A stretch of 42,737 nt of DNA from the NCBI GenBank assembly GCA_903930225.1, contig CAIYXV010000100.1, positions 1 through 42,737 of the forward strand. Reading direction: 5' to 3'. The notes under the pieces were generated by a model, which saw only the letters and a program-made list of their open reading frames with translations, was not told the origin of the DNA and ran no database searches. Shown here piece after piece: positions 19,326 through 22,300 of the stretch (position 1 is the first letter of the stretch; each line of letters begins with the position of its first letter). This DNA comes from an uncultured bacterium (lineage in GTDB: Bacteria > Margulisbacteria > WOR-1 > XYC2-FULL-46-14 > WPAF01). The position numbers and the translations under genes were made by a program.

Positions 19326-22300
19326 TCAGGATGGGGTTTTTTTGACCAGGTCGAGCATCTTTTTCCCGTTCCGCTTTTCCCATTTCCTCTGCCAGTCATC
19401 GGACTGGTTGCCGAACCTTACAATAATCTCGCCGAGCAGCAATTTCTGCCATTCATACACTATCCAGAATCCGACTATTCCCATGGGTAGGGAAGAGAAG
19501 TCCCCGTAATTTACGAAATCGGTAATGAGATTGTTCCTGATGACCTTATAACCGGCGTATGATAATCCGGCGAGCCAGAAGAGGTTCTTGTTCATTAAGG
19601 CGTTTGCCGCTTTGTCCCAGAGCTGCGGGCGTACCTTGTTCTTGGTGACCAGGAACGCGGAGCGGTCGTCACTTATGAATTTTACCATTACTCCTCTGCT
19701 GATCGCGGGCTGGGCGATGGTCTCGGTCGGGATGTGGCGGTTCACTGCCCCCAGGCCATAGGCGAGACCTTCGGTGTCGCGATTAAGCAGTTTTCTCAAC
19801 CCGCTTAAGGTTTCAGAAAGCTCCATTTTCTGCGCGCCCTCGTGATGGCGGCTCATCTTGAACGCGGTCATTGATGTTTTCCAGGCGAGCAGGCCGAGGA
19901 GGGGGAGCCATCCGATATGGGGGAGCACCAGGCTGCTGCTTATCTCAGAATTCACAAACGAAAGCGCGGTCATCCAGAACATGGTCAGGAACATCAGTCC
20001 GTAACGGTTGATATCGGTGGCCAGCGAGCTCATCGGATAGGTGTAGCAGGCAAAAAGATCAAGCCACTGGCTGAACGTGAGCGATTGCCGTTCACGATAA
20101 AAATCCCTTAAGAATTCCCTGATGTATTCGGCATTCCCGCCGAACCATCTGTCCCACTGGCCGAAAAGAACCCCCAGGTCGACTACCGCATCGTTCCACT
20201 GTACCGCTCCTTTGCTTCCCGCCGCCTGGAAATCCTTGCTGAGCATTGCCACGCCGGTAGCCGAATCCTCAACTATTCTCAAGATGTTGTAAAGTATGCG
20301 GGTATGGATGTACTCGCTAAGCTGGAGCTTGCGCTTTGCGATCGCGGAACCCGCTCTTGGCATTAGATTGAAAATAAAAAGATTTCCGAGCGAAGCGTAA
20401 GCCGCAAAATCCCAGAACCCATGGCCGGCAAACCATTCAGCGGGCATCCCCAGATGAGGAGCGAGGTGCGCCACTCCGTAGTAAGTGGCAAAGATAGACG
20501 GGATAACCGGGAGTTTTAGCGCTTTGGCAGCGGCTACTCCGGCCACCGCGACCATCAATGCGGGCTGCCATCCGGATAATCCGGGAATGGTAGATAAAAG
20601 TCCCATCCCCGCGGCGTAGACCGCCCCGAGCACCGGGATGAGCATGGAAGCGCGTTTCAGCGCGCCGTAGAATTTGGATTTAGCGACTTTACCGTATATT
20701 AGCTCGTCATAAGTGCCGTTATCGCGCATGGTAAAATTGACCGCTTCGATCGTTTTAACGCATTCCATTACCGCGTCGATCGGCATCATGTTGGCGTAAC
20801 CGATCGGGAACGCCGTTTTCCTCAATCTTTTGTGGCGGTGACGCACGATCCCGCGCGGCGCTTTTTGTCCGCGGGCGAGCCACATGTTATCCCTGAGCGT
20901 AGTGTCCTTGTCCTGCTGGGCGCGGATGAGCGTTCCCATGCCCTGGTATTCGTAGTTGTTGCCGAACTGCAGTATGGCATCTCCCCGGTAGACCAGTATC
21001 CCGTGATGGTAGCCAAAGTGAGACGAGAGGAATGGGAACCGGGTCGAAGTTATGTTGTCCAGGTCCCAGTTGCCGTGGAAGTCCGAGCCTTCGCGCTCAA
21101 AATAAGTCCGCTCGAACCGGCGGTCGTCAAGGTAATTAAAGACCGTCCCAACGCCGGCGACTTCCTGCCCGCTCTCCTCCGCCTGGCCGAGTGTTGCCGA
21201 TAATTGAGAAATAAACTCCTCCTGCCGGGTCTTTATTTCTGTGCGGTGGTCTTCGGTGTAGTCAAATATCTTTGCGATCGCGCGCGGAGCGGTAAAATTT
21301 GTCCGGTCGGCGATCCGGGCGATCTTTCTGGCCATGATCGCGAATTCGAGTATCCGTCCCTCGTCAAGTTCGTATTCGGTCATTCCCTGCTGTGAGATCG
21401 ACCAGGCGACGATCTCTTCCATTGTCCGCGGTCTCGGGATTATCAGTTCGTGCCTTCCATTTTCAAGCAATAGGAATTGCTTTGCCCCGTTCTGCTTATC
21501 CTTTGGGGTCCAGAGCGCCGGAATGGTATACCATTCGTAACGACTATACAGCTTTTCGTGCTCTTTCTTCTTTTTATCAGCATCGAGCTTGCGACCCAGG
21601 TCCATTGCCAGCTCGATTATCTGGTTCTTCTGCCTCAGGCTCAAATGCTTTTGCGTCGCAAGAAAACGCTTGATCACTGTCGCCGACCCGGCCCCGTTTT
21701 TCCCATTTTGCCGGAGCGGTTCGATATAATCATCGACTGCAATCTGGGGTATCCCGGTCGTATCGTTCAGGTCAAGCTTCTTATTAGCTACTGCGTAGTG
21801 GGCGGCGACAATGCCGAGCGCCTGTGAAGCATATACCGAGACGGCGATCTCATCGGCGATATCGACCAGGTTGGCGCGAATATCGGAAAGTTGCCCTTCG
21901 CAGTAGTTCATGGTGATGACGGATTCGGTTTCTGAAATTTTGAATGCTTTAAATACTTCGGAGGCCGCCTGTTTGGCCGTCATTTTGCGTCCGTGAATAA
22001 GGTCTATCAGGCGGCGGGCGATGTCGTCCGGCGTGATCCCGCGTTCGAGTTTGGCCTTAAAATCAAGATCCTCGTCGGAATGGAGGCGCAGCTGCCTTAC
22101 CACGTCGTCTTTTATCCAGTTGTGGATCTTGACCGGGATGCGGGTCTGTCCGCCTTTTTCCTCGAAAAACCGCTTTATGGAGTATCTGATGAACACCCCG
22201 AGCTGTTCGCCGACGCTCGAGCCGAGGAGCGCGACGTTGGTGAGCGCCGCCTTGGCCGCGGTGTAGTCAAGATGGCCTACTTTCTGGCTGAAGTAATGGG

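Follow-up and report, generated by a model that had tools for sequence, protein, structure and literature searches.

A giant membrane protein with the motif set of a processive GT2 synthase

The 42,737-nucleotide stretch of Margulisbacteria DNA analysed here (the window) carries on its minus strand a 2431-residue open reading frame (19326-26621) whose product, P0001, is a very large membrane protein, apparently a remote relative of cellulose synthase with a catalytic domain interrupted by long insertions. We consider it probable that P0001 is a giant, insertion-split processive GT2 synthase that works like BcsA, sits in the inner membrane and supplies a polysaccharide secretion system of the synthase-dependent kind. 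The motifs, their invariance and spacing, the profile homology around ED and QxxRW, and a conserved gene order were all observed directly.

An initial annotation had placed an ED...QxxRW signature at 20145-20270 in this protein, and the placement is exact: the codon of E2118 occupies 20268-20270 and QWDRW (residues 2155-2159), the only QxxRW in P0001, occupies 20145-20159. Q2155 follows E2118 by 37 residues and D2119 by 36, the latter as the annotation had counted, and an ED-x35-QxxRW arrangement is expected 2.4e-4 times in P0001 from composition alone. The GGNAEYIREFL... stretch and the FLVTKNK sequence to which it had also drawn attention are both present. The features of P0001 discussed in this and the following sections are these:

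25884-26075, minus strand: N-terminal hydrophobic segments, residues ~183-246 (hydropathy)
25365-25421, minus strand: hydrophobic segment 401-419, ahead of the N-block (hydropathy)
25062-25172, minus strand: N-block, residues 484-520, FRYTAPGG...KVIFRNAAA, in relatives RYSNKG...YYVVFNNDS (alignment)
21162-24764, minus strand: stretch of ~1200 residues of lower conservation, residues ~620-1820 (conservation; no Pfam match)
21057-21065, minus strand: DxD-like D1853-L-D1855 within NWDLDN (invariant in 6/6 members; MAFFT alignment with the DxD of eight canonical GT2)
20790-20801, minus strand: conserved GYAN, residues 1941-1944 (alignment)
20502-20642, minus strand: hydrophobic segments 1994-2012 and 2022-2040, within the DxD-ED insertion (hydropathy)
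20265-20270, minus strand: E2118-D2119, putative TED equivalent (invariance and profile match)
20145-20159, minus strand: Q2155-x-x-R2158-W2159, QxxRW motif (invariance and spacing)
19887-19943, minus strand: hydrophobic segment 2227-2245, past QxxRW (hydropathy)
19635-19655, minus strand: FLVTKNK, residues 2323-2329, FxVT gating-loop-like (alignment; V and T invariant in 6/6 members)

A family of six members known from a single phylum

Five relatives of P0001, all from Saganbacteria or Margulisbacteria genomes, bring the family to six members. Four of them (~2300-2600 residues) turned up when the C-terminal 752 residues were used to query related genomes. The sixth member, G003, whose protein is divided over two genes, emerged from a profile search of 74 genomes of the phylum. 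The records that hold these loci are metagenome-assembled genomes assigned to Candidatus Saganbacteria or Margulisiibacteriota. Outside the phylum, no family member was found when 383 relatives spanning all ranks and then 80 genomes of three other phyla (39, 1 and 40) were searched, and a search of viral contigs returned no relatives. A pattern-based scan of 85,000 species recovered four loci only, all matching relatives described above. The giant protein family is so far known only from Margulisbacteria. Among its six members, the copy in the window diverges most. At the level of keywords, one Saganbacteria genome paper makes no mention of cellulose, glycosyltransferases or polysaccharides.

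Conservation along P0001 is highest at residues 401-600, 1801-2000, 2101-2200 and 2301-2400 and low at ~1101-1400. In window numbering, D1853, D1855, E2118, D2119, Q2155, R2158, W2159, V2325 and T2326 are invariant in all six members. The DxD site reads NWDLDN in P0001, NADTDN in four relatives and WDTDN in the fifth, and the relatives carry textbook forms of the other motifs as well (SEDLATT-like, QKLRW and FNVT). The last of these takes the form F/W-x-VT across the family; in BcsA and CesA, FxVT is the gating-loop motif, which touches UDP and the Arg of QxxRW (PMC10592267).

We compared the family with eight canonical processive GT2 from related genomes. The distance from E to Q is 37 in every family member and in seven of the eight canonical enzymes, which bears out the likeness to processive GT2 spacing proposed in the initial annotation. 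By contrast, the distance from the DxD site to E is 265-297 residues in the family (265 in P0001) versus 89-93 in canonical GT2, and the difference corresponds to an insertion of ~175-205 residues that contains hydrophobic segments. When the six members and the eight GT2 were aligned with MAFFT and given no hint, the only invariant columns were DxD, ED, Q..RW and one Gly. These results revise part of the earlier reading: hydrophobic segments do precede ED (1994-2012 and 2022-2040), but they do not replace the DxD half, since the conserved D1853/D1855, our candidate from sequence for the DxD-type site, lies ahead of them, 265 residues upstream of E. Of the proposal that this is a rearranged or insertion-rich GT domain or a new family, the insertion-rich part therefore fits, along with the ED/QxxRW homology seen in spacing, profile scan and the relative P0014 (below), and the simple replacement of the DxD half falls. 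A PilZ-like RxxxR...DxSxxG past QxxRW, noted earlier as missing, is absent from every family member checked, and Pfam PilZ has no match in P0001.

The ED...QxxRW block is homologous to processive GT2

We next moved a window along the full length of the family alignment and compared it, unsupervised, with profiles of GT2. With hhalign, the windows covering ED...QxxRW were the sole match (P 3e-6 to 4e-6, probability 88-93; next window P 0.011). A 55-sequence GT2 profile likewise singled out ED...QxxRW with P 2.8e-6, the best unrelated window reaching P 0.039 and the other good windows overlapping the block. The block alone matched GT2 with P 2.7e-7. Against the GT2 DxD segment, the NADTDN block was the best of 77 windows (P 0.0065), followed by the N-block (0.0076); this DxD match is weak (P 0.0065-0.012) and lies at abnormal spacing to ED. 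The beta1-DDG (beta1-beta2) segment of GT2 was recovered nowhere in the family alignment, the N-block included. Based on these profile results, homology to the second half of GT2 is well supported, that of the DxD site moderately, and that of the first half not at all. We conclude that the sequence data support homology of the ED...QxxRW block to processive GT2, with E2118-D2119 as the likely counterpart of the catalytic base TED. By its order, the conserved GYAN may correspond to the GT2 acceptor-side loop ahead of the finger helix.

Searches with curated models gave less. P0014 matches Pfam Glyco_trans_2_3 (PF13632) over ED-QxxRW with E 8.3e-4, at 19.7 bits below the cut-off of 27, and no family member reaches an above-cut-off assignment in Pfam or NCBIfam. 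P0001 itself has no credible match in Pfam, NCBIfam or PDB sequences, which counts against the synthase reading, and searches of the PDB by sequence and by profile matched no GT. Chimeras from which the insertions had been deleted gave a Pfam GT2 match for G003 only (E 4.7e-4).

Structure prediction, as the initial annotation had suggested, was run on C-terminal parts of two members. For the C-terminal 732 residues of P0010 with a six-row alignment, AF2 returned a mean pLDDT of 41 and a pTM of 0.28; for the C-part of G003, whose alignment was supplemented with rows from eight canonical GT2, the values were 47 and 0.48, in a run that was guided and hence partly circular. A Foldseek search of the latter model (pLDDT 47) against the PDB found nothing meaningful. 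The low pLDDT of both models and the small number of known members (six) weigh against the synthase reading. For the view that the motif match is convergence within a giant membrane scaffold that has no kinship to GT2, one can cite the lack of a curated family match for P0001 and of a GT fold from AF2 or Foldseek. Such convergence would have to account for an exact 37-residue spacing in all members, for an unsupervised profile signal of P ~3e-6 at ED...QxxRW only, and for the GT2 match of P0014, even if below cut-off, and we regard it as very unlikely.

Two other glycan synthase families were considered. GT48 enzymes (FKS1/callose synthase) are likewise giant and have an ED motif, but the likeness is superficial (ED-x-x-x-G) and GT48 enzymes are not known to have QxxRW, the motif that is invariant in our family. 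PF02364 (Glucan_synthase) was unmatched in the genome, where the control was also silent, and in P0001 by a full Pfam scan. A bacterial relative of GT48 is thus extremely improbable and this identity was dropped. GT84 cyclic beta-glucan synthase was also set aside, as Pfam finds no GH94/glycoamylase module in P0001; the GH94 of the window is a separate 790-residue gene.

Where is the first half of the GT-A domain?

The nucleotide-binding first half of a GT-A domain (beta1, DDG) normally lies ~60-90 residues upstream of DxD, and none was found there by sequence. In the model of P0010, helices are predicted within residues 1684-1834, the ~150 residues ahead of DxD (best blocks pLDDT 60-83; model mean 41). 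Because this is the spot where a contiguous GT-A first half belongs, we counted the helices in favour of an interrupted domain. The sole candidate found for the nucleotide-binding half, as yet unproven, is the conserved N-block, which sits ~1300-1350 residues upstream of DxD. In BcsA, the start of the GT-A domain comes after a hydrophobic segment, and so does the N-block. In a profile test it weakly matched the DxD-type strand, not the beta1-beta2 segment. The N-block of the window copy is without the Asp found in the relatives (FRNAAA versus FNNDS), and with this loss P0001 itself could be altered or impaired, a point against the synthase reading along with the divergence of this copy.

G003 bears on the same question. 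Its two genes overlap (L025:287-4828 and L025:4812-8642); the first carries the N-block, and the second encodes a separate polypeptide of 1276 residues with DxD, ED, QxxRW and FxVT together. A Shine-Dalgarno-like sequence (aaggggg) of its own stands upstream of the ATG of the second gene, and this ATG precedes the stop of the first gene. The division therefore appears to be a genuine fission with the two genes coupled.

Combining these observations, we tentatively propose, at somewhat less than even chances, that the GT-A catalytic domain is divided by ~1200-1400 residues between a nucleotide-binding N-block near residue 500 and the DxD half, that a second, hydrophobic insertion precedes the catalytic base, and that in the G003 lineage the halves reside on two translationally coupled genes, forming an obligate two-chain GT2 synthase. 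Alternatively, nothing is split: the C-terminal 750 residues would by themselves make up a whole GT domain, though one with an unusual topology, and the N-terminal 1700 would be an unrelated regulatory or scaffold part. That DxD, ED, QxxRW and FxVT all fall within the C-terminal 600 residues, and in G003 on a separate chain with its own Shine-Dalgarno, argues for a self-contained domain. The 150 residues ahead of DxD, however, hold no beta1/DDG-like segment and are modelled as helices, and the N-block is conserved together with the C-block, leaving this alternative rather unlikely, if worth keeping in sight.

A further possibility is that the protein descends from an ancient processive GT2 but retains only its acceptor and channel half, the nucleotide-binding half having been lost, and was enlarged into a non-catalytic assembly platform while another GT polymerises. 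That no GT-A first half was found beside DxD would fit such a scaffold, as would the Asp lost from the N-block of the window copy, the many other GT2 encoded in the source genome, and the genes at 32621-38782 with weak N-terminal GT4/GT5 matches (see below). Yet a dead scaffold would have no need of DxD, ED, Q/R/W and VT, all of which stay invariant across six divergent members, and we judge a purely structural role to be improbable. These readings and the synthase reading partly overlap, and the likelihoods we attach to them are not meant to sum to one.

For the processive synthase, we infer fold, catalysis, substrate and export along the lines of BcsA. D1853/D1855 (with metal) and R2158 would form the binding site for a nucleotide-sugar, probably a UDP-hexose; E2118/D2119 would deprotonate the acceptor hydroxyl and the acceptor sugar would be stacked against W2159, with the FLVT loop gating the putative active site. 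The surrounding helices would carry the growing chain across the membrane, where the GH8-like/TPR protein may trim it and the TPR and outer-membrane partners may export it.

The family shares with processive GT2 of the BcsA/CesA type (Glyco_trans_2_3, PF13632) the order of the putative DxD, ED and QxxRW, the exact ED-QxxRW spacing, membrane helices past QxxRW, the FxVT gating-loop-like motif and a GH8 partner gene. It differs from them in size (~2300-2600 residues versus 420-600 for most of the canonical comparison proteins), in the interruption between DxD and ED, seen in none of the GT2 compared, in a GT-A first half that is not beside DxD, and in having no PilZ and no above-threshold family match; unlike BcsA sensu stricto, it has no C-terminal PilZ c-di-GMP domain. 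Since a contiguous GT-A first half was not found and the GT-A fold is putative, we do not class P0001 as an ordinary GT2.

The gene neighbourhood resembles a polysaccharide secretion system

The second leg of the functional reading is the gene layout, which is that of a synthase-dependent polysaccharide secretion system. Two large genes follow P0001 in the window:

15004-19212, minus strand: P0002, 1402-residue GH8 (BcsZ-like) and TPR protein with a Tat-type signal (domain searches; next gene in 6/6 genomes)
9650-14911, minus strand: 1753-residue TPR protein (domain searches)

In all six genomes the downstream neighbour is a protein of 1400-1600 residues with TPR regions, and all copies are homologous; GH8 was detected directly in three of them, P0002 and two relatives. 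The layout thus includes the linked glycoside hydrolase characteristic of synthase-dependent secretion, with a putative periplasmic role. Long proteins related to the 1753-residue TPR protein come next at the other loci as far as the flanks reach, and the C-terminal part of the window copy, which ends in GLGGFF, may form an outer-membrane barrel. In two relatives, the flank upstream of the giant gene encodes UDPGP-type nucleotide-sugar enzymes, which speaks for the synthase reading.

With Bcs-type exopolysaccharide secretion, these loci share a synthase candidate, a GH8-like/TPR protein and TPR proteins (one a possible barrel), in the same order where the flank suffices. Unlike Bcs systems, no BcsB-like or PilZ part was recognised, the GH8 domain lies on one chain with a long TPR region, and the partners in the window measure 1400-1750 residues. 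If the synthase reading is right, cellulose-type synthases have a compact GT2 core that can accommodate insertions exceeding the enzyme's own length, and even division over two genes. It would also reveal in Margulisbacteria, uncultured bacteria near Cyanobacteria, a polysaccharide secretion system that escapes family searches because no member attains a curated threshold.

The rest of the window, all on the minus strand, holds further genes. Upstream of P0001 lie three SLOG/LDcluster4-type genes (26769-28094, 28197-29546 and 38840-40216), the first two being adjacent paralogs just upstream of P0001, with 28197-29546 classed by likeness to its neighbour, and the third further up. Between them, 30415-32604 encodes a 729-residue protein with a guanylate-kinase-like N-terminus and ~500 more residues that have no Pfam match. 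The genes at 32621-35848 and 35960-38782 encode proteins of 940-1075 residues with weak N-terminal GT4/GT5 (glycogen-synthase-like) matches and large remainders that received no assignment, possibly additional divergent glycosyltransferases. The product of 40316-41785 is GlgC-like but divergent, a sugar-1-phosphate nucleotidylyltransferase that carries hexapeptide repeats and might supply the donor sugar. On the other side, at 1904-9347, a GH94 phosphorylase and a GH42 beta-galactosidase, their ends overlapping, are followed by GlmS and a sugar-binding protein. Together these genes, next to the synthase cassette, may serve to salvage beta-glycans.
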